A stretch of DNA of 64,000 nucleotides, from contig CAMPDV010000149.1 in NCBI GenBank assembly GCA_946699065.1, positions 496,001-560,000 on the forward strand, written 5' to 3'. This DNA is from Loxodes magnus. Taxonomy: Eukaryota > Ciliophora > Karyorelictea > Loxodida > Loxodidae. Under the pieces are notes generated by a model that was not told the DNA's origin, made no database searches, and saw nothing but the letters and a program-made list of their open reading frames with translations. This document shows positions 8,739-46,696 of this stretch, piece after piece. Made by a program: the position numbers and the translations under genes. The first letter of the stretch is position 1. Every line of letters starts with the position of its first letter.

Positions 8739-9077
8739 ATGGCAGAAGATGAACTTGATGAATTGGTAACAGAAGAATTAGCTGGATTCATAAAGCAAGC
8801 AATTGAAGCAGTTTTAGGACAAGAATCTTTGACCTTTTAAGCAGATAAAGTTAATTCCTGGTGCGAACAAATAATAGATTTTTGTCTGAAAGAGTTGTTG
8901 AAACAAGGAAAGCCATATAAGTATATCGTGACCTGCATTATTTAGTAGAGAAATGGAGCTGGATTGCATACTGCTGCCACTAGCTACTGAAACAATACAA
9001 CTGATGGTCTAAGTAGTATTACATTAGATGCAGCTAACCTTTGGTGTATTGTCACGATATTTGCTATGAGAATTTGA
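8739..9077 (+). CDS. DYNLT: Dynein light chain, Tctex1/DYNLT family
   Basis: A 112-aa protein, the normal length for DYNLT1-type chains. Tctex1 chains dimerise on the dynein intermediate chain and couple cytoplasmic and axonemal dynein to cargo. The whole family signature is present: 'KPYKYIVTCIIQQ', then 'NGAGLHTA', then 'SYWNNTTDG', and a C-terminal 'CIVTIFAMRI'. The Trp in 'SYW' is encoded by TGA and the 'QQ' by TAG TAG; both positions fit the family, so the gene also proves the genetic code. The stop is TGA 9075-9077. There is no intron. The neighbours are unrelated. Confidence 0.96.
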
Positions 9078-9645
9078 ATTTTTATTTTATATCATTTATC
9101 ATTTATTCATTACTTGCTCCTTTGAAGTTCCTTTTATTATTAGCAGCAGTTACGAAATCTATAATTATCATTATGTATTTTAGTCATAGAAAAAAAAGAC
9201 AAAGCTTAATAAATAAAAAACAAACAGTTTCATTTGCTTTAATTCTAATTATTTTAATTAAAACTAATTCTACAATCTAATGTAGTCAAAGATAAATACT
9301 ATTTAGTATATTAAACTATTTCAAATTTAACTAAATAAGCAAATTCTATAGCTACAAAGCTTTCAAAGTATATTAAGATTAAAAGATATAGCCAGCATAC
9401 TTAAACCAGCTATTTTTATATTTTATGAATCTCGTAATTTTTGTATTTTGCAGTTTCTTAATAATAATGTTATCTTATTTAAACTAAAGATAAATAGAAA
9501 GAAAAGGATTAGCTTACTAAATTATTAATAACTACATTGAAATTTTTTAATTTAAAATATTAAAGGTTATTATAAAATGATTGGAGGCTTTGTTTTAGAT
9601 ATGAACAAATTTAATTATATAATATTTGTTATTAAAAGAATTTAA
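9078..9645. other. AT-rich spacer between converging genes
   Basis: No gene seen. It contains no in-frame stop for the OTU gene that arrives from the right on the minus strand (see that entry). Confidence 0.5.
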
Positions 9646-10578
9646 TTAAAAATAATACAAATCTGTGTTTGGATCGGACTGCGCCTACTACCCTAACATT
9701 AATAAAATTAAGTCAGCATCATCTCCAACCATACTAAAAGCTTCAACAGCTTGCTCTAAAGTATAGCCTGCTCTCAATGCTGCTTAAATTGAAGAAGCCA
9801 TTCCTTACATTTCTTCTGATTCTTTTACTGCTGCAGCTTCTAGTTCTTTAAGCAAGGTTTCTCTTGATTCCATCATTTATTTTCACTCTTTTTTAATTTA
9901 AAGTCCTTATTTTTCTAATTCTCCAGGCAAAGAATCAACAGGTTGAAAATCTTTTGTTCTAAGTGATTCATAGTGACTATTTCCTCTATACAATAGTTTA
10001 AGTGGAGATATAAATCTCAATTAATTTTCTTAAAACGTTTTCATTTTAGTTAGTTTTTCCTAAGCTGAATTGCTTTTTTAATCTATTTTATCGAATTTGT
10101 ATATTTCTATTGGTCTATTATACAATTCACTTAATGCTTATATTTCTATATTATCTCCTCATATTCCATCTTTTTATTTAAACTGCAGGTATTAATCAAA
10201 GTTGCCTGTGACGAATTGTTTAAAAAATTCTCTTTGAAAATTTAAGTAGTCAACACAAAATTTTCTTACTAGAGCATAATTTTCTTAGTTTCCATATATT
10301 TAGTCTGATATAGATCTAAATAAACAATTTCCATCCCCCTTTATTTTAATTACTACGTAGGCATTTTCTTCAAATATTTCTATTTTCTTCTCTTAAACTT
10401 ACTATATGCTATTACACTCTTCTAATGGAATTACAATGTCAGTATTAAAAGGGATTCAATCCTCTTAGTTAACCAACTTGAGATAGTTTCCTGCTATTGA
10501 TTCAATTCTACTTAAAAGTCAATCACCTGATTTAGTTTAGAATTTAACTTGCTAGTTTATATATCATTTAGATTCCAT
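9646..10578 (-). CDS. OTU-family deubiquitinase with C-terminal UBA-like domain
   Basis: The frame from ATG 10578 encodes about 310 aa. An OTU cysteine-protease domain lies at about residues 75-225, with the Asp/Cys motif 'KGDGNCLFRSI' (catalytic Cys) and the His motif 'YRGNSHYESL'. OTU enzymes cut ubiquitin chains. A linker follows, and then a helical UBA-like segment, 'ALRAGYTLEQAVEAF...', near residues 265-300, which would bind ubiquitin. OTU and tail share one frame; the TGA in 'KKEWKQ' must be Trp for this. After the UBA-like part there is no in-frame TGA for more than 250 bases, so the end given here (first in-frame TAA) is a guess. An unseen intron, or TAA used as stop, could explain it. 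Confidence 0.83.
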
Positions 10579-12057
10579 GATATGATTTAAAGAAATTAAG
10601 AGAAACTCTATTAGTAAACATATAAACTAAAATATTCTTTTATAAATATTAAAATCTGGCATCTACACTCTTATTTTACTCCAAAACTAAATAATTTCTT
10701 TTATAATTCATAATATATTTGCATCTTTATTAGGAGCAAATTCTTAAGAAATCCTATTAATTTCGTATTAGGATAAAGATAATTACTTACCGAATGATTT
10801 TTAAATTTTAGAAATACTTAAAACAATAATACTTAGAATAAATCCCTCAATTTATTGATTCATTGGTAAAAATAGAAAATAAACTTTCTTAGCTTATATT
10901 AATCTTATCTAAAGCTTCTTCTCTATTTACCTTAATTTAATAAATTTTGATAAGCTGCAGTCATATAATTTCTATCATATTAATGTAGATTTTTTTAATG
11001 TAATAGCATCTATAATAAAGTATTTGCTTTTAAATTAATCTTTTATCTGCTTAATGTAATTAATAGGTTAATATTTTCCTTAACTTAATCTTATAACTTA
11101 CATGCACCTAAAGATAGAATATTTGATTATTCTTATTAACTTTTTCTATATTAAAGTAAATCTGAAGATAATTGCTAAGTTTAATAATTTAAACTATTTC
11201 ATTAATTATTCATATAGTTCCTCAGCATTACTTTATAAATCCTTAAGCATTCTCTTTTTAATGTTTAAGTAGATTTATATTTTGATATATAGTACAAATT
11301 AAAAATCCTCATTTTAGAATTTCAAGTACTCTTCTATATGAAACAATTCTTTACAGAACTAATAATCTTAATAATTAGTCATAAAATTGAAGTTTTAGAA
11401 TAAACAGTAACTTTTGATTAAGACATTTTTCTAGGTTGTAGTGATATACTTAAATTGATTATAGCTTCATTTATATAAAATTTTAAATATGATTAACTTC
11501 ATTTCAATTATTAGTAACTAGTTGCTTATAAATTCTAAAATGCATCTATTATTAATCAAGTAATTTGTCTATATAAAATTGCTTGAATAAATACCAAATT
11601 AAAATACTAATACATAGATTTTTAGTTCCCTTATTTACTTTAAAATTTATCTCAGATAAATAAAAACTAAACTTACCTAAAGTTAGAAGTAAATTATTTT
11701 ATTGCTAATATAGTTTATCTTCTGTACTTCAAATACTCCCTAATGAATTTATTTACTTAAAGTTCTAAATGAAACAATGAATAAGAGAATTTATAGATAA
11801 TTAGCATATTTATATATTTTTATTTAAGGTGAAATATACTTTATTATTGCTTTACTTTTTAATATAATTTCTTACTCACAAGGAAAGATTAACTTCTGCT
11901 TTAAATTCTTAATTTTCTTAGAAGATTAATCTAAATGAGAAGAAATGCTTATTATTCAAATGTAATATTTTGTTGAAAGGAAATGTTTTAAGGAGTAATT
12001 AGAGTGATGCTTTATGAAAGAGCTGAAATTTAATAGTTATGGGTATAATATTTTACA
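10579..12057. other. AT-rich spacer
   Basis: About 1.5 kb. No gene, RNA or repeat was recognised. Confidence 0.5.
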
Positions 12058-12723
12058 TCAATAAATTCTAGATAATCTATAACTCAATTCTTTTAAAGGG
12101 TTCAATAATGCTAAAAGCTCTTCAGCACTTCTCCAATACTTTTTTGCTATTTCATAAGCTGTTTATCCTTCATTATCCTTAATGTTTCTATTTGCTCCAT
12201 TCAGCACTAAAATATGGCAAGAGTCAATATCGCCTTTAAAAGCAGCAATGTGCAAAGGAGTTTATTCGAAGCTTGATTCTTGAATATTCAATTTTGCGTT
12301 TTTTCGTATTAGCAAATCAACAATTTTTAATTATTTAAAATAAACTGCGCTATGCAGTAAAGTTCAATTTTAGTCATTAAGTGGAAAATCAACTGGAAGT
12401 CCAACTTATAAGTGGTTCTGAAATTCTTGGAATTTTCCTTCATTTATACATTTCGATAATTTATCCTATAAAGGTTTTCACATAATTAGATCTTTCTCCT
12501 CTATAATTATCTTATTATCTTCTCTTTTGCTAATAGAGCTTACTTCATCTAAAATAGTTTACTCTTAATTATCTTTTTAAGATTTTTTTCCTTCTAATAT
12601 AGATGGAGTAGGACTTTTGTGCATTTCAGTTTCATATTATTAATATTTTCCTTTTCTGGATTTCATTGGATCGTTTATTGCAAATCCTGATACTTTTGAA
12701 TAACAAAATTAGCAATTTCCCAT
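12058..12723 (-). CDS. Ankyrin-repeat protein with acylation signal
   Basis: A 221-aa protein from ATG 12723 to TGA 12058-12060. It begins MGNCQFC: Gly2 fits N-myristoylation and the adjacent cysteines fit palmitoylation, so membrane anchoring is likely. A charged, Gln-rich linker runs to about residue 85. Two to three ankyrin repeats follow, seen as 'NWTLLHSAVYF', 'QTPLHIAAFKGD', 'LVLNGANRNIKDNEG' and 'QTAYEIAKKYW'. Ankyrin repeats bind partner proteins; no enzymatic domain is present. It is probably a membrane-tethered adaptor, but its partner is unknown. The Trp of 'NWTLLH' is TGA and the Gln of 'QTPLH' is TAA. Confidence 0.88.
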
Positions 12724-13862
12724 TATTTAAATCTTAAATTTAAATCTAAGATAAAAATACCTTACAAATACAATTTTTACTTTTAATAAATACCTTTCTT
12801 AGTCTCTTTCTAATCTTTTCCTTACAATGTAGAACATTTATTGACAATGTCCTTTTTAAACCTTCATTTATTTTGCTTTTTTAAATGATTTCACTTTCTC
12901 TTGTACCTCAACAATAAAAAAGTACTTAAAAAATAAAAATATTAGATGACTTAAATATAAGTAGAGTATTTTAATAAAATAATACTAAGACAATAGAGGT
13001 TATATATTATTAACTATAAGTATAGAGTGATAAACTTATATTTCTACTTATTTTATTATTATTTAAAATATTGCTATTAAGTTAAACTTCCTAATACTTT
13101 TATAATTAAAGCTATATAATTATTAGCTTAGCAATTGGAAAAGTATATGCTTATGGAGCTATTTAAATATAATTTTTTATATTAGATTATTAAATATTTT
13201 AGATAGAACATAATTTTTTCACTTAAGCCTAATTTCTGAATGTTCTTACTGTTTATTTATTATGGTATACATTTTTTCAAGCATTAATAATCTAATGCAA
13301 CTTTTTAAATGAATAGCATATTTTAAACTAAAGCTATAAAATTATTAATTTAATATCAGATTAAATTTTAGAAGAAGCTAGTTTTTTTTCTTAGTTTTAA
13401 ATAATATATTCAAAAATTATTGGACACATAAGTTATATAATTTTAACTATAAAAAGAGATAAAAATAGCAGCATCATTTTAATAAAGAAAATAAATGTTA
13501 TATTAGTAAGAATAGGCTCAGATGCTAGTATTAATACTCTATTAATGTCTTCTATTGCTTAAATAAGTAATTTAAATAGCAATCATTTACTATTACTATT
13601 TATCCTATATTTTGAATTTTACTTACCGCTTTATTGAGTTCAGTCACTATTACTATAATTATTTTATCTTAAATCTTCAGAACTTTGATGTTTTCTTGTC
13701 TAATAGCTTTATTATGTTAGATTTGATCTGTAAGCAATATGTAAGATTTGTTGTGAAATTAATTTAATTGCTAAAGTGAGAATTGTTAGTAATTAGGAAT
13801 AAGAAATTCTAAAATTAAGAGGTTTTAATATTTAGTACTCAGTAGTTTGTTATAATAAAAAG
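12724..13862. other. AT-rich spacer between divergent genes
   Basis: The roughly 1.1 kb shared upstream region of the ankyrin gene (minus) and the CPBP gene (plus). No gene seen. Confidence 0.5.
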
Positions 13863-14718
13863 ATGAAGTCAAGCAACTCATCAAGATTTACCAGATTCAT
13901 TCCTGGAAAATAGTTGATCTACTATCTACTAGCAACCCTGAGTTATTGTATTATAAAGCCTTAAAAAATTAACTTCAAAGTAACGAGAAAACATTTCATT
14001 CCTGCATTTTTAGCTTTAGTGCCTGCCATGTTAGTATATATTGGACTTTTTAAATATTCCTCAATCTGGGTTTGCTTTTTTACGTTTCACACTTGACTAT
14101 TAATTAGTCCTTTATTTTTTCATCTGAAATATGAAGCTCCTGACTATTTTTTAAAGATAAAGACAGGAGTATGGAAAAAAAAGGACTGAATATTTCCATA
14201 AACATTGATAGGAATGACCTTAGGATCTTTGTTCGTGTTATTGATCACGCTTCTCGTTATTGCTGTTATTAAAATAGACTTCAAAAATGTATACTGGTTA
14301 GCTACAGGAAGTGAAGAAAATGATTTATTTAAAAGATTAGAAGCAGTAAACTTAGACTTCAAATAGCCTGCATCTATATTATGCTTTATATTTTATTTCA
14401 CTGTAAGCATCTATTCAGATAATAAACCCAATAATAGAAGAATGGTTTTGGAGAACTTTTATGTACCGAATTTACAACCATTCTCACAAATGGATGTAGG
14501 CTTGACTATTTTCTATCTATCATTTCTTTGTGATGTGGAAATTTACTTTAATGTGGGCCGCTGTTTCCTTTACACTATTTGTAGCTTTAGCTGGTAGATG
14601 GTTTATTTATTTAAGAGATCATTACGGATGGGTAGCTTGCCTAATCGTACATATTCTAATTGATTTCGAATTAATGTTGCTCATCACCATTTTCGCTTTT
14701 GCTCAAGAATTCATTTGA
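13863..14718 (+). CDS. CAAX prenyl protease 2-like (CPBP family) membrane protein, one 16-nt intron
   Basis: Exons 13863-14402 and 14419-14718 encode 279 aa. The protein is mostly hydrophobic, with several membrane helices. The CPBP/Rce1 family signatures appear only after a 16-nt intron is removed: 'NPIIEEWFWR' (EExxxR motif, the catalytic Glu pair), then a His in 'SIYHFF', then 'HILID' (HxxxD motif). In Rce1 these residues cut the last three residues from prenylated proteins in the ER. Other CPBP proteins have bacteriocin-immunity or unknown roles, so the substrate is uncertain. TGA 14716-14718 is the stop. Under the standard code only the last 60 residues would look open. Confidence 0.85.
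14403..14418 (+). other. 16-nt intron in the CPBP gene
   Basis: GTAAGCATCTATTCAG. Removing it joins the two conserved frames (...FYFT | IINPIIEE...). It starts GTAA and ends ATTCAG. Confidence 0.88.
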
Positions 14719-16015
14719 ATGCATAAACTAATATACATTCTATTTATACAGTTATTTACACTTTTTTTAACTCAAATACATTGGTTTAAAAATAAAGTAT
14801 TTAGCCTAAATATTTAAGAGATGATATTTATTTAAATAGAAAGTAGCTTTTAACTTATATTATATGAGGTGTATGAGTAAATAATACTATTTAATTCCTT
14901 TTGATTAATTAAAATTAATTAATGTTTGCTTATTTTTAATAATCTATTTCTTGTTATTTTTATTCATTCAATCTTGCCTATAATTAAAATGTATAATCAC
15001 ATTTGCTAGATATTCTTAATTGTACTGTCTGTTTTTATTTCAATGTTACTGTTTCTTTATTTAAGCATTTGTTACTTCTTACTCTATAATACACTGGTTT
15101 AGCTTTTTATATGTTTATGATAAATCATTATAAATAACTATTTTAAACTAAAATTAAGTCTCTCTTTATATAAATTGTAGTAAAGTATTTTAAAAGGTAA
15201 TTAAATTTAAATAATATAATTATTATTGTCTTGCTTTATTTAAAAGACTACTACTTACAGGCTTATTTTATAATAAAATACTAAGAAAAGCATAAACTTT
15301 ATGACAAACTAAGGTAATATAAGTAAGATCTCTTTATTATATGAAAAGAAGTCCCTTTTAATTAAAAATGCTTATGTTTAGGCAATTTAATATCTTAGTT
15401 GTCTAATATTTTATAAAGACTTAGAGTTTTTATTTTGATTGATACACTAAAGTTCTTAATTATTACGACTAAATCTGTTATAAGCTTTATTTGATTCATA
15501 TTCCCTAATTTTGTATGGCTAAGCAGTGAAATATATTATAAATCATAATCACAGTTAAAATAAATATTGATTATATACTTTAAAGTTAGAAAGATAAGTT
15601 AATAGAAGTATAGAGAATAATAATAGATGGCATTTAGAAAAATGATTATTTAAACTATATTAATAATTGTATTAAAACATACTAATAACTATAATAATCT
15701 CTAATATATATAAATAAAGCTTGTTTATGAATACTCTAGCTAATATTAATTATATCTTTCCTAAGCTTTTTATATATCTTTATTAAGTTATTTCTATTAC
15801 TTTTTAATTTTCTTTTCTGTTAAGTTTTAGCAAAATATTTAAAGTACCAAATAAAGCAAGAAGATATTGCTTTTTAAGATAATTTTAATTGTGTATAGGT
15901 TTATAAATTTTGATTTGCTTTTTTATAATAAAATAGAAACTAACTTTAATTAATATTAATTACAAATATTTAGATAAAATTAAAAAATCTGTCTTATTTA
16001 GATTCTATGTATAAC
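14719..16015. other. AT-rich spacer between converging genes
   Basis: About 1.3 kb holding the 3' flanks of the CPBP and TIPIN-like genes. Nothing else recognised. Confidence 0.5.
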
Positions 16016-16732
16016 TCACAAATCAAAGAACATACTTTCTTGTTCCATTTTTCTCATTTTAGCTTTATGCTCTAAAAGTTCATCATCCAGCTTTCTTTTT
16101 AAAGATTGCTATTGCTCATTTTAAAATTCGTTGAAAATATTTTCTTCTTCTTCAAACCCATTTTAATTTGCTTCGTTCTATTCAAAAAGTTCATTTTGAT
16201 CAGGAATTTAATTCTCTGATATTTATTTTTATTATACAAGTGAAGTTTAATTAGTTAAACAAACAGCATCTACTTTTTATTATTATTGATTTTCCATATT
16301 GACTTCAGTAATTTCATTAGTCTCTTAATTTTGAAGAATTAACTTAGGTACTTCTCTGCTTCTTTCTTAGTTTTGCCCAAATATTTTTCTATTTTAATCA
16401 AGTCAGTTTTGAATTTACTAATTGGTTTGAAATCCATTGCATTTGTTTATAAAGTATTCGAAATCTAACTTCTAGCAAAGTTATAGTTACCATGACTGTT
16501 ATAATTGCATTATTTTCTAAAAATCACTTATTTCATTTTCAGTTCCTTAAAGATTTAATTTAGTTGTTGCCAACATATTTAAATGAGGAAGACCTAAGGT
16601 TGGGTGCATTAGCATTTATTCAGTTACCTTTATTCTCTCTTTTTTATTTTTAGGCTGTTCTAGATTTGAAAGTTTTTGGTTTTAGTTAGTGCTAGTTGAG
16701 TCCTAAATGTTTAAAGTAGGTGAATTTTTCAT
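16016..16732 (-). CDS. TIPIN: TIPIN/Swi3/Csm3-like replication fork protection protein
   Basis: A 238-aa protein from ATG 16732 to TGA 16016-16018. Residues about 34-125 match the Swi3 domain: a basic 'KERIKVTEQML', then 'GLPHLNMLA', then a helix 'DFQKIMQLQQSW', then 'KLDFEYFINKC' and a basic 'IQNWLDQNRK'. TIPIN (yeast Csm3, fission-yeast Swi3) pairs with Timeless/Tof1 to steady stalled replication forks and signal to the checkpoint kinase. The C-terminal half is acidic and Gln-rich and ends in a charged helix with 'LKRKLDDEL', as in a nuclear protein. It is divergent, hence the moderate confidence. It is divergently transcribed from a Rad5-like gene across 68 bp, which fits a shared replication-stress role. 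Confidence 0.78.
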
Positions 16733-16800
16733 TATATTGCGGGTAATTAAGAAATTTAAATAATAGATTTATTTAAATATTCTAAACCTATAAAAGACTA
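16733..16800. promoter_or_regulatory. Shared 68-bp gap between divergent TIPIN-like and Rad5-like genes
   Basis: The two start codons are only 68 bases apart on opposite strands. This stretch must hold both 5' leaders and any promoter elements, unless the promoters lie inside genes. No specific motif was recognised. Confidence 0.6.
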
Positions 16801-19449
16801 ATGAAAAGCGGAGGAATTAAAAGGTAATTTTAAGAAGTTGTTGAAGAAACTAAGCTAATCTAAAGCTGTGAATAACAATACCCAGCTCAAACTGCGGAAA
16901 CTAGTAAGTATCTAGGCTAAATTGAAATTTCCATTCTCCCCACAGCTTCTATTGTTTTTCCTATAAATACTGAAATAGAATTTCGCCTTGATCTCATAAA
17001 GTTAAATCCGCAAAATAATCGAAAAAAAGGTAAAAAGGGATAACAAGTTGAAAAATAGGCTGAAGCACTTAAACTAGCAGTTCACTTTAAAAATAGTAAA
17101 AATTCAATTTTAAAAGTAGCGAATGTTAGGAAATAGCATTCGGATTACTTAGCTCCTCTTATTAAAAACTAAATGATCGAAATAGAAGGTATAATAAGAA
17201 ATGCTCCTGATAGAGAAGCAAAGTACAGTGATGATATTGTTGCTTATATTAAAATTTTCTTAACTCCTAAAAGCTTTAGACTAGGCAATTTAGATTGTGC
17301 TCCTGAAAATGAAGCTTGTAGAGAAGCATTTCTATTGGTATTTAGAGCTTTATAGTTAACACTAGTTTAAGGAGACGAAAAAAATCCGATATAGAAAATA
17401 AACGGAAATATAACAGAGCCTACTTTAATAAATTAGTAGTCTTCTCTTGAAAAATATAATAACTATCTATTTACCTTCGAACAAAAAGAAGATAATGAAA
17501 TTCCAGATGCAGAACCAGCTATTGGATTTAAGACTCCACTTCTTTCTCATTAGAAAAAGGCTCTTTATTGAATGCTAGAACGAGAAGGTGTTTTTAAATA
17601 AGAAAGTTCGAAATCAAAAGAGCTACATCCTAATTGATAAGAATGAAAATTAGAAAACGGAGACTTGATTTATTTTAACCCCTTTACTGGTCAAGTTTCT
17701 AATTAGTATCAATACACTGCTCCATTATGTCAAGGAGGAATTCTAGCAGATGAAATGGGGCTTGGTAAAACAGTAATGACATTAAGCTTAATACAATCTC
17801 ATTTGCCAAAAATGAATAGTATTTAGCCTGCAAAGAAATACAAAAAGGAAATAGAATTAATAAAAGGAGGAACTCTTCTTATTTTACCTCTTGTAATCTT
17901 ACCTCAATGGAAAAGTGAAATAAAAGAGCATACTTCTTTAGACTATATTTTATATTATGGATAAACAAGAGAACAAATAAGCAAATGAACCATAAGTAAA
18001 AAACAGATAGTGCTAACAACATATGGAACAGTTGCAAGTGAATATGCGAACTAGTAAAATTCTCTTTTATATCAAATAGAATGATTTAGAATAATATTAG
18101 ACGAAGCTCACAATATTAAAAATAGAAATTGCTAATAAGCATAAGCAATTTTTAGTCTCCAAGCTGAATATAGATGGGCTTTAACAGGAACACCTATTTA
18201 GAATCACTTTGATGATCTTTTTTCTCTTGTTCATTTCTTGAAAATAAATCCTTGGGCTGATCACAACTGGTGGTACAAAAGTATTTCAACTCCTTTTGAA
18301 TAAAAGTGTTTTGAAAAAGCTTTCAAAATTTTACAGAAAATATTAAAGCCAATAGTTCTAAGAAGAAGGAAAGATTAACTATAGACTTTCTAGCTTCCAG
18401 AAATAAAAAAATAGACCGTAATGCTGAAATTGAGTGAATAGCAAATAGTTATTTATTAGAAAATTTATAGCAGAACACAGGTTACTATTTAAGACTTTCA
18501 GAACAAAAAGAAAAACTATGCATCTGTTCTAGCAACATTAATGAGACTTAGATAAGTATGTAATCATCCAGCTTTAATATTAAAACGATCCATAGTTTAA
18601 TAAAAGGATATCCTTGAAGATCTGAAAGTATTTCTAAGCATGAATAATAATGAACAGTATATTACCAACTTAATCGATAAAATATAATAGCAGACAGAAA
18701 CGAAAGAATGCGTTATTTGCTTTGAGGAAATGGAAAAGTACTAAATATCAAACTGTGGCCATATTTATTGCTAAGAATGTGTAAATTTACTCCTATAAGA
18801 ATCAAAGTAATGTGCAATTTGTAGAAAAAAGTTTAATAATAAAAAAGATTTTACTCTTTTCCAAATTCCTAATCCAATCCTTGATTACAACAATCTTTGG
18901 AAAGGAAGCAAGAAGCTTGACACTTTGATAGAAATAATATAATAAATTCCTACAGAGTAAGTATTTATATAAAGTGAAAAAATAGTTATATTTAGCTAGT
19001 TTGTCGAAATGCTTAATATTATAGAAAAGCCTTTAGAATATTGGAATTTCAAGTATGTAAGAATTGATGGTTCTGTAAGAAGTGAAAAGAGAGAGTAGGT
19101 TTTGAATTAGTTTAAAAAGGATGATGAGGTAAGAATCATCCTTTGCTCTTTAAAAGCAGCAGGAGTTGGGCTAAATTTGACTCAAGCTAGCAGAGTAATT
19201 CTAGTAGATCCTTGGTGAAATCCTGCTATTGAAGAGCAAGCCATCCAAAGAGTGCATAGAATTGGATAAAAAAAACCAGTTACTTCTTATAAGTTAATTG
19301 CTGAGAAATCTATTGAAGAAAGAATTTTATAACTCTAAGATGCTAAAAGTTGGATGGCTGGAATGGCTTTAGATTAGGCAGAAATAAATAGTCAGAACTT
19401 CGATAAGAAAATAATTCAATAGTTACTTAATGACATCTGGAAAAATTGA
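16801..19449 (+). CDS. Rad5/Rad16/HLTF-type SNF2 ATPase with internal RING finger
   Basis: An 882-aa protein in a single exon with stop TGA 19447-19449. The SNF2 helicase motifs are clear: 'ADEMGLGKT' (Walker A) near residue 320, 'DEAHNIKN' (DEAH box), 'ALTGTPIQN', 'VIFSQF', and the C-terminal '[21 protein letters not shown]' region. A C3HC4 RING finger (CVICFEE...CGHIYCQECV...CAIC) sits between the two helicase halves near residues 640-680, the hallmark of Rad5, Rad16 and HLTF. Rad5/HLTF polyubiquitylate PCNA and reverse stalled forks; Rad16 acts in excision repair. The N-terminal 200 residues could include a divergent HIRAN domain, which would favour Rad5/HLTF, but I cannot confirm it. The second Trp of 'PWW' is TGA and the last Gln of 'RIGQ' is TAA. 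Confidence 0.95.
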
Positions 19450-20203
19450 AGAAAACTTATATGGTTAAATGTTTTTATTAATGCAATCTAAATTAAACAA
19501 ACCTTTAGATTATCAAACTTATTTTTACTTATTTATACAGAAATAACTGTTTTGAGTATTTAAAAAACATTAAATCAATATTATATATAGAAAACATAAG
19601 GTAATTAATGCTAAAAAATGTACTTAAAAGTGTAGAAAAAGTTATTTAACTTGCTAATTAAAGTGAGTATTATGTTTTAATAAAAAGGTGAAAAAACTTA
19701 ATAAAGTGAGACATTAATTATAAGCATATTACTTTAGCTTATATTATTTAAATATAATTTCAATTGTATCATTTAATGAATTTTTCTATTCTTTACAATA
19801 TTAAACTAAAATATGTGCAATATCTATTATCTAATAATATAAGCTAGCTAAACTCTTTATTTTAGGTTAAAAAGAGAATTAAAGAGAATTGATAAATGAA
19901 AATAGTTAAAGAACTATATTTGTAAGAAGTAAGTCTATCTTATATAATAAAGGAAATTTTAATTAAACTAATAATTTCAATTGTTAATTACTTTATTAAC
20001 TTAATGTTTGCCCAATTCGTTTTAATACATTTATTACAGATCCTTAGAAATTAAAATCTTTTAAGAAAGTTATAGAACAGCAGATGTTTATTTAAATAAT
20101 TTGAAACTAAAATAAATTAGTTAAGAAAGAATAATTAGTAAATATTTTAAGTATTACCAGTAGAGTAAACCAGATAATTTAATTAATATTATATTATTCA
20201 AAA
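19450..20203. other. AT-rich spacer between converging genes
   Basis: No gene seen. It contains no TGA in frame with the minus-strand gene that ends near 20,204. Confidence 0.5.
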
Positions 20204-20931: not shown

Positions 20932-21239
20932 GTTAAAATTAATATATAAGTTTGATTAATTTATTGGAACTTAAAACTTTAATTCTTCCATCAAAATATC
21001 TAAAACAATCAGTTTTAAATTTCTATTATTCTTCTAAAACTAAAATTTACTAGTTCTATTCTTTTTACTAGACAATTAAAATCTTTCTCAGTAGGTTTAG
21101 TGATCTTAGTAATTTAAATTTTAAATACATTTGAACATTATATTTTAATTGTAAAATATTATAAATAAGCTTTTTTAAATATATAGTATTAATTTAAAAT
21201 AGCATTATGGCTTATTGTATCGATGCTTAAATAGAATTT
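20932..21239. other. Short AT-rich spacer
   Basis: About 300 bases upstream of the basic-protein gene. Nothing recognised. Confidence 0.4.
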
Positions 21240-21762
21240 TTAAATCGATTTATTATTTCAAAAGGAAATATTTAATATTTGCACTTTCTTTTCTATATAT
21301 CAGACTTTATTAATCTTCCTATTTCATTGTAGCCAAACTTATCGCAGTGATATAAAACTATTATAATAAACGTTACTATATCATGCATTGAATACTTTTT
21401 CTGAGCAGCAATTTTGCTAATACTTAGTCCTTGTTAAAGCATAAATTTATATATAAAACAGAACTGTTAATATATCTTTAAATTATCCTTAGTCTTTCTT
21501 AATTAATTGGAATCATCTTTGAAACTTAATCATTTCTATAGCTGCTTCTTTTCTAGAGTTTGCTTAAATAATAAATTATAGATGGAAATTATTCCGCTTC
21601 ATTGCGTATCTTAATCAAGTTATTCTAATATTTATTAAAAGGAAAAGTTTAATTTCCAAAATAATGAAAATGATATAATAGTGAGAGTTTTAATGATAGT
21701 TCTGCTAGACTTAAGATTAAAAGCTATGCAAATAATCTTAAATATACTTTATTAATGTTCAT
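21240..21762 (-). CDS. Uncertain hypothetical gene, two overlapping frames
   Basis: Two minus-strand frames look protein-like. One opens at ATG 21762 (MNINKVYLRLF...). The other, covering roughly 21,240-21,700, reads 'GLSISKIAAQKKYSMHD' and 'DKFGYNEIGRLIKSD', with balanced composition like a helical domain. The first may splice into the second through a short intron near 21,430-21,470, but I could not fix its ends with the GTAA...AG pattern seen elsewhere. There is no clear TGA end and no recognised family. The coordinates are approximate. Confidence 0.3.
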
Positions 21763-22073
21763 CTTACAATATTTTAAGTTATTGTCTTGTGAAGGTTACC
21801 AAATTTCTAATTAAGTAACTAAGTGATTTGGGCTTTAAATCAGGTAGAGTTATTCTAAAAAGAGAATAAGTATTATATAGAGAAGGAGTGAAGAATAGAT
21901 AGTAAATAAAGATATATAGGTAACAATAGATTATTACTTATTCTAAATTCTGCTAAATATCTGCATCCTATACAAATAACATAAGATCCACCACTTCTAT
22001 TCCTTTGTATTTTCAATTTGCTAATTTCTTAATCTTTTATAGCTTAATTAATCTTATTTGGCTCTGATATTAG

Positions 22074-22871
22074 ATGAATTTAGTATTATAATAATAATAA
22101 CATATTTGAGTAAAGAATTAGTTAAAATACAGAAATAGAGTACTATATTTAAGAAGATATGCGGATATATTTAAATATATCTTAAGAAAGCTCTGCAAAT
22201 AGCATTAATTCATATAAAGGAAGAAGCAATGGAGCGAACTAGTATAGAATGTAATTTCATTTATACTTTTGTATCAAACTACAGAAAATAGTGCTTTAAG
22301 CAAATCTTAAGATAAATTGTACTTTAAATATTGAGATCCTTCAATTGAGTATGCTATAAATTGATTTAATCTAATGAATCGGAATTCAGTTTAATGTCAG
22401 AAATAAATTTGGATGCTAATTGGTAAAGGACTTAGTGGAAATGATATACAAAATCAATTTAGTGATTTAAAGAAGAAATTTGTTCTTGTTGCAAAAATTA
22501 AATTAAATAATACTGCAATTTAGAATATAATAAAACCTAATAATAAGATACATATTTACCTAATTAGACGTAAAAGCTTTTAATCTTTTCAAATATTAAA
22601 GATAAAGGAAATTACTTAAATAGGAAATTCTTGGAAGAGTTTGAATAAAATTCGGGTATTAAAATAGTAACCTTTACTTGGAGGTCTTCGTTAAAACTTT
22701 TTATTCAAGATGACTTTTAATAAAAACCAATTAAGTCTTCATATTTAATTTTTGAATGAAAACGAAATAATTTAAAGGAATAGATTCAGTATTCTAAAAA
22801 GTAAAAACTTGGATAAAAGTAAGAAAGTGATAGAAGTAAAGGTATAAGAGATGAAAGGGTATAAAATATAA
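22074..22871 (+). CDS. Hypothetical protein, uncertain 3' end
   Basis: The frame from ATG 22074 encodes about 265 aa with balanced composition (for example 'KKQWSELVQNVISFILLYQ', 'KYWDPSIEYAINWFN', 'IGKGLSGNDIQNQFSDL'). This is unlike the repetitive Lys/Asn/Ile output of spacer DNA. No family was recognised. The frame then runs without TGA into the next gene, so the end given is the first in-frame TAA after 'EMKGYK'. A second frame over the same DNA is also open but looks less protein-like. Confidence 0.42.
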
Positions 22872-22959
22872 TTCTATTAAATAATCTAATTTGTAAAAGT
22901 TAAATTGCTTTCAATCGAATTTCTCATTTTTTGTAAAGTTATTGTGATTTATAATAAAA

Positions 22960-24003
22960 ATGCTGAGAAAAGCAACTAGAAGAGCACTCTCAACACATTT
23001 AAAACCTACCGTTTCAATTGACACACCTAGAACCATAGATAAAAGATTGGAAGGACTTGCAGAAAAAGTAGCAAGAACAGAGGCCAGAAGACAGGACTTT
23101 TTGTAAGAGGAAATGAGAATTAGATTTTTAGACAATAAATTTGGCAGAGCTGGACACTATCCAGCTTACCCTGATCATGCTGTTGCAGTTCCTTATGAAG
23201 ATCGAATCCCACATTTAGCTGATAGATTGGGAAAATATGGATAACTTCATGCAACTTCTCAAATTCATGAATGGCTTTCAATTGAATGTGATTAGGAAAA
23301 TCCAGCATATTATTCAGCATTTGCTCAAAGACCAACTGATGTTCCTGATGAAGATGTAAACTTTGAAAAAGGAGAGACAATTTATCATAATCCTACCATA
23401 TAGAAAAACTGCAAATTAATGCATCAAGTTTATTTGGCTATTGCTGGAAATACTGTTCTTAACGTTTTATAAACTGTATTTACTGGAAGAGCAATTTGGC
23501 CAATTGGTGATGAATTTTTGGATACTAGAGCCTTAGGAAGTCCAGGACCTGACTTTTCCTGGGTATTCTAATATGCCTTATCAGGATTATATACTTGGCA
23601 CGATCTTACCGCCTTTGCTGTAAATGGCTTTTTAGCTCCAATTCTACCAGCTGGACTTTATGTAGTTTTTAAATTACCAAGAGCTGTCCTTAAGGATGTT
23701 GCAATAAAGCTTGAGTATAATGAGGATAAAGATCTAGTTTTCGTTACAAAAGGATGCCAAAATGCTTTCTCGAACTAAACAAAGGAATATGTATACGAAT
23801 TATCTCATCTACAGGTTCTACCTCCTTCAGTAGGAATAGGTGCTAAATTTTCAGATACAGTCTTCACTATAACAGATATGTATTCCTAAGATCATTTCTA
23901 CGTTTTTAAGGATGAAGCTTTATGGAATCAGAAAAACAAGCAAGAATTCATGAAAAAAATATATAATCTATGGAAGGAAGGTGGTGCTGAGGAGGCTTAG
24001 TGA
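22960..24003 (+). CDS. Predicted mitochondrial protein, TMEM70/TMEM186-like C-terminus
   Basis: A 347-aa protein with stop TGA 24001-24003. The N-terminus, MLRKATRRALSTHLKP, is basic and amphipathic with no acidic residue, a typical mitochondrial targeting signal. The middle is unusually rich in Trp, Tyr, His and Pro ('FGRAGHYPAYPDHAV', 'SIECDQENPAYYSAF'). It includes a hydrophobic stretch 'GFLAPILPAGLYVVF' near residue 230. The last 110 residues ('LPRAVLKDVAIKL...', 'LSHLQVLPPSVGIG') vaguely recall the soluble C-terminal domain of TMEM70/TMEM186/TMEM223 proteins, which act in assembly of respiratory complexes; this is a weak match. It has higher GC than its surroundings, as expected for a well-expressed gene. 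A ciliate-specific inner-membrane subunit is the main alternative. Confidence 0.7.
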
Positions 24004-24206
24004 GAATTTCAATAATTTCTTAAGTTTAAGTTTATTCTTAAATTATATAAAAGCACATAAATACTAAAGTTCTTCTTATTTAGAAATAAATCACTAGCAA
24101 CTTTCTTTTATTAATGCTACTAAGTTCAGTTGGCATCATTATAATAAAGAAATAAAAAAATCAATAAAAAATATAAATAATCAAGCATCCTTCATCTAAG
24201 ATCTGA

Positions 24207-25743
24207 TCATTACAACAAGTTGATCTCTACTATATCTGTCTAAATCTGAATTTATATATTACTGTGTTTTTCACTAAACAAATTTGCTAACTCTTCTGGA
24301 GTATCTCCAGGATAAACTATGATTCTATCTTTTCTACCTGGAGACATATTAACATCAATGAACAAAAGAGGTTTCGAAGGAGATTTTTAATTTGTGTACT
24401 ACTACTAAGGGATTTGTAGTTATTGCTATTAATTTTGAGAGAATTACTCTTATTGAATAGGAGAAGGTGATGGTTTCTTAATATTTTGTAATGCTTTATT
24501 TACTGCTTCTTATATTTCCTCTGCATTAAAAATTACTTTTCAATTATATTGGCTTTTCTAATTCTTAATTCCTAGCTTACCCTGTTGAAGCTGCTTTTTG
24601 ATTTAAGTTTTGTTTAGCATATCTAGGAGATTTACCTTCTTTAATTTCTTTTATTTATACCATATCATTGTCTTCTTAGTGCTTAGGTCTCTATCTTTCT
24701 GGAGGAGTTAATTATTTTGCACTTGATTATTTTTTGGTTAGTTAATTTTCGTCTTCAGCTTCCAATTCGACAAAGGCAATATTAATTGAATTTTAAGCTT
24801 CTTACTTTTCTTCTTTTTATTCTTCTCTAGAATTATTAGCAGATAAATCTTTTTTTACTTACCTTGAGGCTTTTGGCTTTTTCTCATTATATTCAACTTT
24901 TGAAACTTCAATAATATCATATAGATCTTGCGGCTTTCTTTGATTAGAATTTTACTCACTCTACTGTTTTTAGATTTGCATAACAGCACTTCTGAGTTCT
25001 GAAACTTATTAGTTGAGCTCAACTAATTAGTCTTAAGTTTCTTTTTTATAAGCTTCTAGTTCAATAGAATTTTTTTAAAGTTGGGATAAAGCATACTAGT
25101 AGTTAATTTGTACTTCACTAAGCTAATCTCTTAGTGTCTTTCTATCTTTTTCAAGTTATATTAGCTTTTCATTTTGAGTCTAAACTATTTGCTTTAATTA
25201 ATTTATCAGATCAATCTTTTTCTCTTAACGTTCAATTGCTTCCTGAAATCCTGCTATTTATAGTTTAAGAGTTTGAACACATGAATGCTTTGTAAATTCA
25301 CTTTATCTAAAAGTTTATGAGCAAATTTAGCAATCAATCAGTCTAAAGCTGCATAATGCTTCATGAATGTCAGCATCTTTCTTAAATGTTGATTTTTTAC
25401 ACCCGAAATTTTTGCAGTACACTTTAAGATATTAGCAAATAGCCTCATGCTATTCCAGTTTCTCTAAATTAAAAATCTAGTTGCATCCTTCATTTCTACA
25501 TCTTACTTACAAGGAAGCCATAAGGTTTTTTAGATTTCGATTTAACTCTTTTACTTAGAGAGATCCTTACTTGCAATAAGGGCAAGTTTAACTACTTTTT
25601 TAGTGTTCTTCTTAACATTTATCACAAAATAAGGAGTCACACTTAATGCATTATACTGGAAACTAAGCTATGTCAGAGCATATAATACATTACAATATAT
25701 TAATATATTGAGGCTGAGTGAAGATTTCTTTACTATAGCCCAT
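24207..25743 (-). CDS. RING plus TRAF-type zinc-finger coiled-coil protein, one 16-nt intron
   Basis: Exons 25743-24537 and 24520-24207 encode 506 aa. An N-terminal RING finger (about residues 18-60: 'QCIICSDIA', 'QCIKCDSLFCDKC', 'TCPYCKQ') is followed by TRAF-type zinc fingers (about 75-160: 'VRCRNEGCNQIF', 'EAICQYLKVYCKNFGC', 'CSFRLIDCQIC'). A long coiled coil and a Gln/Lys-rich linker follow. RING-TRAF proteins are usually E3 ubiquitin ligases or scaffolds. Near the C-terminus, 'FIDVNMSPGRKDRIIVYPGD' precedes 'TPEELANLF'; I recall similar short modules at the ends of protist coiled-coil proteins, of unknown function. The intron is needed to join 'LEKPIQLK' to 'KEIQEAVNKAL'. The stop is TGA 24207-24209. 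Confidence 0.85.
24521..24536 (-). other. 16-nt intron in the RING/TRAF gene
   Basis: On the minus strand it reads GTAATTTTTAATGCAG, identical base for base to the third intron of the CLEC16A homolog at 38416-38431. Confidence 0.85.
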
Positions 25744-26192
25744 CAATGTAAAATTTAATAATCATATTAGCAAGCTAGAAAATAAATTAAAGCAGCTTAT
25801 TTAATTAAACTTACCTTTATAACTAATTAGGAAATAAATCTTTCTTTAGTATCAATAATAACTTTAGTCTGCTAAGCTAACGCAGTTCTAATTTTATTTA
25901 GTTTAAAGGTTAGATTTTTATTATATTAAATCTAAAATTAAAATAGAATATTAGTTTGTTACATTTAAAAGCATTTCCATAAGGCTAGCATTTAGTAAAA
26001 CTAGGCTTTTTATTTAAGATATGATTATAAGCTTGGCTAGGTTTAATAAATCTAGATATAATAATAGTTAATAATAGATAGCTAGAATTTGTAGCAAGAG
26101 TTAGATTTAATTAGTTGATATTAGATAATTTGGCTAGAGAACTGCTTAATAATTTAGAATTATATTTTATTTTAAAATCAAAGTAAATCATC
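25744..26192. other. AT-rich spacer
   Basis: About 450 bases between two minus-strand genes. Nothing recognised. Confidence 0.5.
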
Positions 26193-27830
26193 TCAAGCAT
26201 CATAATGCTTTACCCACTTCTTTTCTTGCACATCATAGAAATATAAATGGTAATCATTGTCAAAAAACCAGATTTTTTCTTCTCTAACAACGGGTTGCCA
26301 ACATAAATAAAAATATCTTTCTTCTGGGTAAGCTGGTCCATGTTCAGTTATTTTTTATGAAGCTAAATCAAACAAATAGGTATTAATAAGCTATTAGCCA
26401 TTTGCAAAAAGTATAATTCCATTAAGAGATGGAATATAAGAAGCATATATTGAGTTAGCAGACTTTGGAAGCTTAGTGTCAATTGTAGTTCATTTGTCAG
26501 TTTCAATTGAATAAACATGAATTCTATCAATCTCTGAACTATTGGAATATCCTCCAAAGCAATAAATATTATTTTCAGCAAAAACAAGTGCTGATCCTCT
26601 TAAAGCCTCAGGTAAAGAAGCAAATTGAGTAAATTCCATTGTTATTAAATTAAACTTTTCACATTCTTTAACGTAATTTCCATTTAAATCACCACCTACT
26701 ATATAAACAAAGTCTTTTTAATCCCATACCATTCTATGAATTCCTCTTGCAAAAAGCATATCTTTACAATGAACTTATTCTCCATCAATAAAATAGAATT
26801 TAGTTTTCCATTAATTACCTCCAGATATTATGATTCTATTATCATCCAACTAAAGCTGGGTAGTTCAATTCTAGTTAGGCGTATCAATATTATATTCTTT
26901 AGTTGTATGACTTTAGCAAGAGAAATCATAGATAAGCATAGTATTAGAACTATATTTAAATATTAAGTATTTATCAAATTTGTTCGCTCTAAAAACTTTC
27001 TTTCCTTTTACTTCTTATTTATTATCGAACCTTCATAGATTTTTTAAAAATTCCTCTATTTTATTCTAGTCTTATTAAAAATTTATTTCGAGTTCTACGT
27101 TCTAAGGCTCAATTTCTACTTTCAATTAGTCAAAAAATTATAAAGACGCTTCATTTTGAAAGTTTTGAGGAACTTAAATACTGGAAATAACTTGATACTA
27201 TTAATTATATTTAGCAAACTTTTAGTATATATTTTCAAATTCCTCCTAAACGCTTGCTTTAAATTCATTAATCCTTTATTCTTTCAGTATGCTAATCTAT
27301 TGCGATATGAAATCATACTAGTTGGAAACTGTGGCGCAGAATTCTTTATCCTTTGTATTAACATACTCTATTTAATTCTAATATGATTGTATTAGGTTAG
27401 AGATTAGATTCTTTTGATGATCTAAGCTTTACTATAGAGGAGTTTCTTATTTATTGGAAGTTTCTAAATCTTTATACTTGTGATTAATGTGATCTCCCCA
27501 ATGTAAGCAAATGAAGCATATTAATTGTTAGTCTTTATAGCAAACATATTAAAACGGCATTTAATGAGATTGACAAAGTTTTTCTCTAGGTGTTATTAAT
27601 GAGAGAGCTTCGTTTGTTTTAACAATACAATTTATTATATCGAAATCAATTGGCAGATTTGAAGACTTCTGCAGAGTAAATTTATTACATACTTTGCATT
27701 TTATTTTACTATTCGCTTAATATTATGCATCACAGCAAGCTTAACACATTGTATGACTACAAAATAATAGCAAGGGTTTATTAGCATGTGTGTTATATTC
27801 ATGACCTTGAGGACAATCAGCTGTCTCCAT
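26193..27830 (-). CDS. TRIM-like protein: degenerate RING, B-box, coiled coil and Kelch repeats
   Basis: A 545-aa protein in one exon from ATG 27830 to TGA 26193-26195. Residues 6-50 carry a sparse Cys/His RING-like pattern (CPQGHEY, FCSHTMCQACC, CKVCNKF). Residues about 88-125 form a B-box (CQSHQMPFQYVCYKDQQLIC then 'FICLHWGDHINH'). A coiled coil covers about 130-240. The C-terminal half has Kelch repeats, seen as 'IIISGGNQWKTKFY', 'VYIVGGDLNGNYV', 'IYCFGGYSNSSEI' with Trp/Tyr pairs. This is the order of animal TRIM proteins with a beta-propeller at the end. Such proteins are often E3 ligases whose propeller picks the substrate. The first zinc finger is incomplete, so ligase activity is uncertain. 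Confidence 0.87.
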
Positions 27831-29038
27831 TTTTATATTAAAACCAAACAGATTCTGTTTAAACCTTATTTAATTACTATGCTAAGATTATATCTTACTT
27901 AGTTATTTCTTCTAACTAAACTAACCACTAAGCAAAACTGCATCCTCTATTCTTTGTATTTTGACTATAAATAGCCTTTAATGGCAAATATAAAGCAATA
28001 AAAAGCTATATTTAAGAATATTTTTGGTAATTAATTAGTTACTAGATGAAGTATCTTTAAAAGCAGTTGCTGATTGCTAGTCATAGCTATTATGTAATAC
28101 TTAATTTATTTACGTTTCTCTAATAGCAAAAATTTAAAAAGCTTAGATTATTTTAAATAAACTGATATTCTTCTAAATAAGCATTCTATAATCTTCGTCT
28201 TATAGCTTTAAATAATAATCTCTAATAGTTTTATTCAATATTCTTTAAATGCTAAAATCAAACTAAAGAGAAACAATTAACAAGATATGATAAAGTTAAA
28301 ATCTTTCAAAATGAATGTTTCTATAACTTAACTATTAAACTTTTATAAACTAGACACTGAAAAGAAAGGTATTACATTTCTTACAATTTTAATTCTAAAT
28401 AGTATACAAATTATACAACTTGTCTAGTATTTCTCTTTATTTAAGCACATAATGGCAACTAATTAATTTTTGGAAATTAATAGTAAGCATGTTAAAGTGG
28501 TAATCAAATCTCTGAGTTGGTATTCTTTAATATATGAAGTTCTTAGATATACTTAGATGCTAATAATCTAATTAAATAAATATAATGCTTCTTTAATATA
28601 TTAGATTCCATTGATGATTTGTACACTTTTTAATATAGCTTAATTTAATCAAAACTTTAATCTCAAATAGCTTATTAGATCTTAAGTAACTACTTTTAAT
28701 TATTTAGCTATTAAAATAAATTTAATTATGCTTTACTTATATTTTATACTTTCTATCAGGAACTTATTTTTAGCATCTATGCAAACTTTCACAGACTTTA
28801 ATTTTAACACCTAAGTATGAAATATGAATAAAAGATAAATATTTAGTTAAAACAGCAATCCTTTTTTAATATTTTAGTACATTAGAATGGCATAAGACTT
28901 TAATAAAATTAAAATAAGAAGTAGCTAATTAGTTTTAGCTAAGGTAGTTTATATGCTAATAATGATAGATAATTAAGTTAAACCATATTAAAAATAAAGA
29001 CATTCTTATTGAAATTTAACTCTTCTAATTATTTAAAA
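27831..29038. other. AT-rich spacer between divergent genes
   Basis: About 1.2 kb upstream of both the TRIM-like gene (minus) and the ALDH6 gene (plus). No gene seen. Confidence 0.5.
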
Positions 29039-30562
29039 ATGCTGGCAAGAGGAATGAGAAGAAACTTTGCAAGTAAAGTTAAGCAGTATATCAATGGATA
29101 ATGGGTAGAATCTTCTACTAAGAAGCATTTTGAACTCCTAAATCCAGCAACATAAGAATTAATTGGTTTAGTACCTCAAACTACAACAGCTGAATTTAAT
29201 GATGCTGTAAAAGCAGCTAAGGAGGCTTTTGTATCTTGGAGATAAGTTCCAGTATAATAAAAGCAAAGAATAATGCTTAATTACATAAGGCTTATATAAG
29301 AAAATACTTAGAAAATCGCATAACTAATTACAAAAGAGCACGGCAAAACTTTACCTGATTCAGCTGGTGATGTTTTTAGAGGATTAGAAGTTGTAGAATC
29401 AACAATTTCTACAATGTTCCACATTTAAGGACATTTCTCTTCAAACTTAGCCAAAGATGTTGACACTTACACTATTAGAGAACCTCTTGGTGTATGCGCT
29501 GGAATATGTCCTTATAATTTCCCCGCTATGATTCCACTTTGGATGTTCCCAATGGCCACGACTTGCGGAAATACTTATATTCTTAAGCCATCAGAAAGAG
29601 ATCCAGGTGCTGTTATTTTACTGACGGAACTTGCTGAGAAGGCTGGATTACCTAAGGGAGTATTGAATATTGTCCATGGAGCAAATGAAACTGTAGATAA
29701 TATTTGCACACATCCTGATATAAAGTCAGTATCATTTGTAGGAAGCAATACAGCTGGAGAATATATATTCTAAAAGGCAAGTGCTCATGGAAAGAGATGC
29801 TAAATTAATATGGGAGCCAAAAATCATGGTGTCATAATGCCAGATGCTGAAAAGGAAGATACACTTAACGCTTTAGTAGGTAGTTCATTCGGAAGCACGG
29901 GTTAACGTTGTATGGCTTTACCTATTAACATTTTTGTTGGCTCATCAAAAGAATGGATACCAGAAATGGTAGCTAAAGCAAAGAAACTTAAGTTAGGTCC
30001 TGGAGAAGATTCTAAGACAGATATAGCTCCTTTACAAAATAAAGCACTTAAAGATAGAGTACTATTTTACATTAATAAGGCAATTGAAGAAGGTTGCGAA
30101 GTTCTTCTTGATGGAAGAGGAGTTAAAGTTCCGGGCTTTGAAAAAGGAAACTTTATAGGCCCAACTATCTTAAGTAATGTGAAAACCAATATGGTTTCAT
30201 ATTAAGAAGAATTGTTCGGCCCAGTAGCACAAATAATGTGCGTGGAAACTTTAGATGAAGCTTTGAAAATAATTAACAGTAATAAATACGGAAATGGAAC
30301 TGCCATTTTCACATAAAACGGATCTGCCGCAAGAAAGTTCTAGACAGAAGTTGAGGCAGGCTAAATTGGAATTAACGTACCCATTCCAGTTCCTTTGCCT
30401 ATGTTTGCTTTTACTGGAAACAAGGCTAGTTTCTTAGGAGACTCTAATTTCTATGGTAGATCTTCTTTTAACTTCTACACATAGTTGAAAACAGTAACTT
30501 CACGTTGGAAATTTTCTGGAGAAGCAATGGCGTTACAAACTTCATTCCCTACAATGAAGTGA
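29039..30562 (+). CDS. ALDH6A1: Methylmalonate-semialdehyde dehydrogenase (acylating), mitochondrial
   Basis: A 507-aa protein in one exon. It oxidises methylmalonate semialdehyde (valine catabolism) and malonate semialdehyde to propionyl-CoA and acetyl-CoA, using NAD and CoA. The N-terminus [13 protein letters not shown] is a mitochondrial targeting peptide. Family marks include '[14 protein letters not shown]', '[10 protein letters not shown]', '[13 protein letters not shown]', '[14 protein letters not shown]' and the catalytic-Cys motif 'GSTGQRCMA'. The CoA-dependent (ALDH6) class lacks the general-base Glu of other ALDHs and has Asn in the 'GAKNH' motif, as here. The Gln of 'GQRCMA' is TAA. 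The stop TGA is followed directly by in-frame TAG. Under the standard code only two short open pieces of this gene would be seen. Confidence 0.96.
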
Positions 30563-46600: not shown

Positions 46601-46696
46601 TGAATCGTCTTTTTTCTCGTATTTGGTAGCAACGTTGGAACTATTGTAGCCTTTAGAGTTTTTATTTTTGTTCTGCTTACAACAACTAGGACCCAT
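43607..46696 (-). CDS. Large C2-like, helical membrane-associated protein
   Basis: The frame from ATG 46696 to TGA 43607-43609 encodes 1,029 aa, though the last 60-70 residues may be spacer. The N-terminus MGPSCCKQ has Gly2 and a Cys pair, suggesting lipid anchoring. Residues about 40-180 look like a C2 beta-sandwich (alternating strands such as 'IKFQVKISNFKVRNL', 'LKVSIFQENILQSYVEVQIS'). A second C2-like piece may lie near 280-340. The region from about residue 390 is all-helical: 'EEIL'-type repeats, 'SHVYPYLPKEENALEEL', 'RKRGVFYFQWLKELF', 'ILQTLLQEMYQRDIQEWPD'. The order C2 then helical repeats recalls fungal and protist C2/DUF1765 proteins, but that is a weak match. A peripheral membrane protein is likely; its function is unknown. 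Confidence 0.68.

Follow-up and report, generated by a model that had tools for sequence, protein, structure and literature searches.

The known karyorelict nuclear code recovered from raw sequence of Loxodes magnus, with a possible minority of UAA-terminated genes

Introduction

How are genes read, and how are they closed, where all three conventional stop codons occur inside open frames? This question is raised by a stretch of 64,000 nucleotides from the ciliate Loxodes magnus (G000:C149:496001-560000, hereinafter the window, which means this stretch at its full length). An earlier note made from the letters alone proposed for it a karyorelict-type ambiguous code, with TAA and TAG read as glutamine (Gln), and TGA read as tryptophan (Trp) inside genes and kept as the terminator at their ends. 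Here these assignments are examined in the window and, by genome-wide searches, over the assembly of 705,730,643 bases in 7843 contigs. The code of the window is the karyorelict nuclear code, translation table 27 of the National Center for Biotechnology Information (NCBI), as published for L. magnus, and is therefore already known.

According to the publication on the 706-Mbp macronuclear (MAC) assembly of this species, table 27 applies: UGA means Trp, or stop near the end of mRNA, and is named the sole stop codon, while in transcripts UAA is depleted before stops and UAG is not (PMC11441545). The assembly that contains the window agrees with it in size, and the species is assigned by this size and by the code. 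Distance to the poly(A) end appears as the switch for the meaning of UGA in Swart et al. 2016. We consider it nearly certain that the window is L. magnus nuclear DNA read by table 27, TGA being Trp within a gene and stop where the gene ends; a minority of UAA stops in addition is probable. As to the latter, stop-UAA is reportedly suggested for a small minority of the transcripts of karyorelicts in the abstract of Seah et al. 2022 (Peer Community Journal); the term "stop-UAA" was absent among the matches listed in a literature search on the ambiguous karyorelict code.

Results

Sense meaning of the three codons

All five codon statements of the earlier note proved exact on re-reading of the sequence. 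In the gene of a RAD5/HLTF-type SNF2-RING helicase (16801..19449, plus strand, presumed start ATG) the DPWW motif at 19207 is GAT CCT TGG TGA, so that the second Trp is TGA, and the final codon of HRIGQ at 19255 is TAA. In the Tctex-type dynein light chain gene (DYNLT, 8739..9077, plus strand) SYW at 8982 contains TGA (8988-8990), and QQ at 8943-8948 is TAG TAG; in the gene of an ALDH6-type methylmalonate-semialdehyde dehydrogenase (29039..30562, plus strand, presumed start ATG) the Q codon of STGQRCMA at 29894 is TAA. Only the second Gln of the Tctex1 pair faces Q in five aligned PDB chains; the first one faces M in the four best chains and, by eye, apparently in the fifth. Translation with table 27 and family alignment, proposed earlier as a check, gave the expected Pfam families: Tctex-1 (3.7e-24), Aldedh (4.4e-137) and SNF2-rel_dom (4e-71) together with RING and Helicase_C. 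The helicase also matched RAD5 (2.2e-72) and carries six in-frame TGA codons as Trp (17569, 17635, 17644, 17986, 18082 and 19216).

Each of the three genes was then scored against its best PDB relative, with BLOSUM62 sums compared over 20 possible assignments. Six aligned TGA codons were opposite W (three), F (two) and Y (one), and W was the best reading (18.5 bits; next Y, 9.5). TAG was found opposite Q most often (5/18) and was also best read as Q (13.5 bits; next E, 10.0). In eight Ras loci the Gln of WDTAGQE is encoded by TAA in seven cases and by CAA in one, while its Trp is TGG in six and TGA in two. Eight Rab and two eRF1 loci were also aligned pairwise with the three codons masked, which gave 29 pairs whose cells are not independent of each other. 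Opposite TGA (28 cells) there were 20 TGG, two TGA, two Leu, two Phe, one Lys and one TAA; opposite TAA (261 cells) TAA itself was met 86 times, and Gln was the commonest standard residue (33) before Arg (25). In each of the two NF-YC-like loci, L097 and L098, one TGA is internal (RS-TGA), at a position where we take Trp to be conserved, and one is terminal.

Two counts speak against the Gln assignments. In the window TAA was opposite K in 10 and opposite Q in 8 of 37 cases, and the reading as K scored 25.0 bits versus 24.0 for Q; since the window alone ties these residues, it takes the conserved motifs and loci elsewhere in the genome to settle the meaning of TAA. Opposite TAG in the paralogues (110 cells) Glu (14) and Lys (13) exceeded Gln (9), and the assignment of TAG to Gln therefore leans more on the PDB alignments and tRNA. 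Taken together, these data give UAA and UAG the meaning Gln, and UGA that of Trp inside genes.

Transfer RNAs and eRF1

The search for transfer RNAs (tRNAs) with UUA and CUA anticodons, recommended in the earlier note, was successful. A tRNA pattern carrying either the TTA or the CTA anticodon matched the genome 253 times forward and 253 times in reverse, and its reversed control had no match; ARAGORN, run with the bacterial code on 8 such loci, named five of them tRNA-Stop tta and three tRNA-Pyl cta. Genes with the TTA anticodon form a head-to-tail array on C214 (232619-237623, unit of ~275 bases), and those with CTA a similar one on C130 (557668-566520, unit of ~588 bases). By means of tRNAs with UUA and CUA anticodons UAA and UAG would be translated as Gln; the charging of these tRNAs with Gln is assumed from published work.

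Genes of tRNA-Trp cca are also organized in tandem, head-to-tail arrays, on C67 (482315-491198, unit of ~187 bases) and C148 (157298-168947, unit of ~241 bases). A first, earlier tRNA-Trp pattern had no matches and the second found the gene; for tRNA-Trp(CCA) the first 100 of 556 matches were listed. The anticodon arm of the C67 genes, ATCGA CTCCAGA TCGAC, has its top pair 27A:43C broken, which leaves a stem of 4 base pairs (bp), and in the C148 copies among the matches listed the top pair is T:C. One CCA match on C110 (470099-470133) is tRNA-like and, unlike the arrayed genes, has the top pair of the anticodon stem intact, which counts against the short-stem explanation. One match among those listed has a GCA anticodon (C72). 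One strict pattern for tRNA-Trp with the TCA anticodon, which is not equal to a full tRNA scan, had no matches genome-wide. Thus, tRNA-Trp(CCA) with a 4-bp stem was found, and tRNA-Trp(UCA) was not met by this pattern. PMC13092985 credits the 4-bp-stem tRNA-Trp of Loxodes to Swart et al. 2024. Most likely it is this tRNA-Trp(CCA), with its anticodon stem shortened to 4 bp, that would decode UGA as Trp inside genes, as published work suggests.

In the 64-kb window itself ARAGORN and Rfam detected no tRNA and no RNA family. The genome-wide search with RF00005 gave 63 scored matches, of which 30 loci were taken and 16 run in ARAGORN; tRNA-Lys was found in all 16, plus tRNA-Ala in three, which was of no use for Trp or Gln, and a head-to-tail array on C103 (669738-672972, unit of ~527 bases) consists of matches scoring the same as the tRNA-Lys genes. 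For selenocysteine tRNA (tRNA-Sec) three matches were above the family cut-off, and the two inspected (L202 and L203) both have the tca anticodon. UGA may consequently have a third meaning, as published for relatives: codon triality, with UGA as selenocysteine, is described for Condylostoma magnum and Parduczia already in Swart et al. 2016 (PMC4967479).

The release factor eRF1 is encoded by two near-identical copies (identity 0.95 over 433 positions), located on C196 at 19713-20081 (L075) and 54613-54981 (L076), ~35 kb apart. GTS and NIKS are both present, the latter as RAQNIKS, and are accompanied by FLCENTF; the usual motifs are TASNIKS and YLCDNKF. L076 closes with DEDFL TGA, and a second TGA stands two codons further. 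Near the 3' end of mRNA this eRF1 would convert UGA into a stop, with the poly(A) end favouring termination there; for the poly(A)-proximity switch we rely on published models.

TGA at conserved C-termini

The position of the terminator was registered where the end of the protein is fixed by conservation. In tubulin genes TGA directly follows the conserved C-terminus in 19/19 readable of 20 fragments. Many tubulin matches are clustered on one contig, C64 (~619000-934000), and the 12 ends taken from C64 and C237 are all TGA. The histone-fold sample included 25 of 31 matches (among them L101, though it is without conserved C-terminus), and 23 of them are closed by TGA, with no TAA between the recognisable fold and this TGA. 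In L082 there is TAA, then four more codons and TGA, while the histone H3 variant L085 has TAA TAA TAA, the next TGA being 168 codons further.

The largest sample was provided by Rab genes, whose prenylation motif must be C-terminal. From 150 scored matches 85 Ras-family loci (8 whole and 77 fragments) were used, and an end was classified if one of the four codons after the motif CC or CxC was a stop codon. Before counting, six hits of the motif that lay out of frame (in L120, L127, L135, L162, L166 and L183) were removed by hand as spurious; 64 ends were classified and 21 were not. The terminator is TGA in 52 of the 64, including three (L001, L002 and L115) in which it is shortly preceded by TAG. 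By eye, four unclassified ends (L005, L112, L184 and L194) also have TGA after a Cys motif, several (such as L103, L106 and L113) have TGA without such a motif, and L116 is ambiguous. Within these Rab ends TGA was met in 1/1040 codons of the last 20 and in 2/777 before them, counts too sparse to show depletion. Judged from DNA only, UGA appears to terminate, as expected for the karyorelict code.

Several genes of the window behave likewise. In DYNLT one residue (I) separates the last aligned residue from the terminal TGA (9075-9077), and in chain 8j07 one residue is likewise left (112/113 aligned). The terminal TGA of the dehydrogenase gene (30560-30562) directly follows the codon that aligns with the final residue in both chain 4zz7 and chain 4e4g; that of the helicase lies at 19447-19449. 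TGA also closes an ankyrin-repeat gene (readable part 12058..12723, minus strand; Pfam Ank_2, 3.3e-15) after LSRIY, a Swi3 replication-fork-protection gene (readable part 16016..16732, minus strand; Pfam Swi3, 2e-12) after MFFDL, a frame without Pfam match (22948..24003, plus strand) after EEAQ (TGA 24001-24003) and a frame without family (24225-24524, minus strand). The earlier note counted sixteen genes closed with TGA. Six such ends plus the last-named frame can be indicated in the interval 8739..30562, but the number sixteen was not reproduced. Composition by itself does not locate the gene ends in the window: an in-frame TGA lies at most 3 codons from the end in 7/23 of the composition segments, compared with 6/23 and 0/23 for the other two frames (the former being the +1 frame). 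Many of these segments are probably broken by short introns. Nevertheless, the ambiguous code itself is well supported, since table 27 agrees with the L. magnus paper and the division of TGA between Trp and stop recurs in Rabs, in the two NF-YC-like genes and in the genes of the window.

TAA as a candidate second terminator

The statement that TGA is kept as the terminator holds for most conserved C-termini, but it is probably incomplete, as TAA seems to close a minority of genes. Among the 64 Rab ends seven (L120, L134, L182, L185, L190, L192 and L200) have TAA without TGA within four codons, five have TAA and then TGA within four codons, and none has TAG alone. With the H3 variant as 1/25 of the histone-fold ends and one gene of the window, these seven make the ends that look TAA-terminated, in apparent departure from the code as published. 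The next in-frame TGA is 43 codons further in L120 and 128 in L134 and, counted from the motif, 36 in L182, 40 in L190 and 18 in L192; in L185 and L200 it lies beyond the fragment. On average, GC content (the share of G and C) falls from 0.317 to 0.201 at TGA ends (n=52) and from 0.318 to 0.202 at TAA-only ends (downstream n=6 of 7). Tails of paralogues are followed by different codons in corresponding positions: KNCNC by TGA in L107 and KSCNC by TAA in L120; NSCCKL by TGA in L114, KNCCY by TAA in L185 and KNCCF by TAA TAA in L190. In the 52 TGA-ended Rabs the share of TAA among Gln codons is 33/109 in the last 20 codons and 35/70 in codons 21-35 upstream (Fisher p = 0.011), while TAG shows no depletion (33/109 versus 16/70; p = 0.31).

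The gene of the window that seems to belong to this class encodes an OTU cysteine protease similar to OTUD5 (readable part 9646..10578, minus strand; Pfam OTU, 1.2e-19; OTUD5, 4.4e-28). An internal TGA is in IWGDNIE (10161-10159), where OTUD5 has H. The apparent terminator is TAA at 9646-9648; in-frame TGA is absent for 124 codons past the coding-like segment, and GC content over 90 bases is 0.34 before TAA and 0.16 after it. A hidden intron at this end was considered as well: four candidate GT-AG introns of 15-30 nucleotides were found, and none of them brings TGA into the stretch examined.

Weighing the alternatives

Based on these data one can assume that two codons are both sense and stop, namely UGA (Trp/stop) and UAA (Gln/stop, in about a tenth of Rab-type genes), while UAG would be Gln only. 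We lean towards this reading with moderate confidence. Its chief competitor is the code as published, with TGA as the sole terminator and the apparent TAA ends mis-modelled, decaying or extended at the C-terminus; we judge it somewhat less probable, yet a real contender. It has the statement of the L. magnus paper on its side (PMC11441545), and TGA does close 52/64 Rab, 19/19 tubulin and 23/25 histone-fold ends. Several features of the data weigh in the same direction, against UAA stops. TAA makes 46 per 1000 codons in coding-like segments, so that a chance TAA within four codons of the motif is expected in about one case in six, and 5/12 TAA Rab ends do have TGA within four codons. The GC step in 90-base windows is smaller than average in L120 (0.289 to 0.222) and L134 (0.300 to 0.222). 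At the observed downstream rate the probability of meeting no TGA over 38 codons is 0.62, and its absence therefore shows only the lack of a nearby TGA stop. The filter for Rab ends detects an end only if a stop codon lies close to the motif, and some TAA-ended copies could be decaying. What stands against a sole TGA terminator is the group of 7/64 TAA-only Rab ends, with a mean GC step equal to that of TGA-ended genes, the remoteness of the next TGA in L120, L134 and L085, and the lack of any TAG-only Rab end, 0/64.

This last point bears also on a Condylostoma-type code (NCBI table 28), in which each of the three codons serves as sense and as stop. All three are indeed in sense use, and TAA ends seem to be present. 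TAG-only ends, however, were not seen either in the 25 histone-fold or in the 19 tubulin ends, and near stops it is TAA, not TAG, that is depleted among Gln codons; such a code is thus quite improbable. Still farther from the data, and in our estimate practically negligible, is the supposition that the in-frame TGA, TAA and TAG are pseudogene lesions or assembly errors under the standard or a Tetrahymena-type code. Low G+C of the window and the repeat-rich genome reported in PMC11441545 could be cited in its favour. But the eight best Ras matches carry inside the domain TAA in 8/8, TAG in 7/8 and TGA in 4/8 cases, the two TGA-bearing WDTAGQE motifs have intact neighbours with TGG, and tRNAs with TTA and CTA anticodons exist.

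Other genes of the window

Readable genes were also found for a Kelch/B-box protein (26187-27833, minus strand), a CLEC16A-like protein (38762-39169, plus), a DUF1765 protein (43823-46699, minus), an IP3-receptor-like protein (49055-54262, plus), SF-assemblin (60988-61656, plus) and an LNR-repeat protein (63069-63998, minus). Segments 6100-6800 (minus) and 2443-3700 (plus) had no Pfam match.

Discussion

The picture obtained coincides with the karyorelict table 27 of Parduczia sp. and Loxodes magnus: UAA and UAG are Gln, and UGA, which is Trp within a gene, is stop at its 3' end. It differs from the published L. magnus code, which terminates at UGA only, in that UAA appears to be the last codon in a minority of cases. 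Condylostoma magnum (table 28) likewise has all three codons in sense use and context-dependent termination, but, as published, it also stops at UAG, whereas no UAG-only end was seen here. The nonstop code of Blastocrithidia, as presented in PMC13092985, also uses the three stops as sense codons, with UGA as Trp and a tRNA-Trp(CCA) with a 4-bp stem; in that organism, however, UAR means Glu, and the codon with dual meaning is UAA.

UAA would probably be a second stop in a minority of L. magnus genes. Termination near the end of mRNA may then be conditioned by position together with an eRF1 that lost recognition of UAG and kept a weak recognition of UAA. The main result is the published code recovered from raw sequence, and it adds nothing to that code; beyond the known code there is a modest refinement on TAA, which is at most genome-level support for the published hint. 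If the UAA stops are true, L. magnus gene models with TGA-only stops would overrun the true ends of TAA-ended genes. Paralogues in which the choice between TGA and TAA after a common C-terminus is the sole difference may then offer a natural test of whether position in mRNA makes stops of codons weakly recognised by eRF1.

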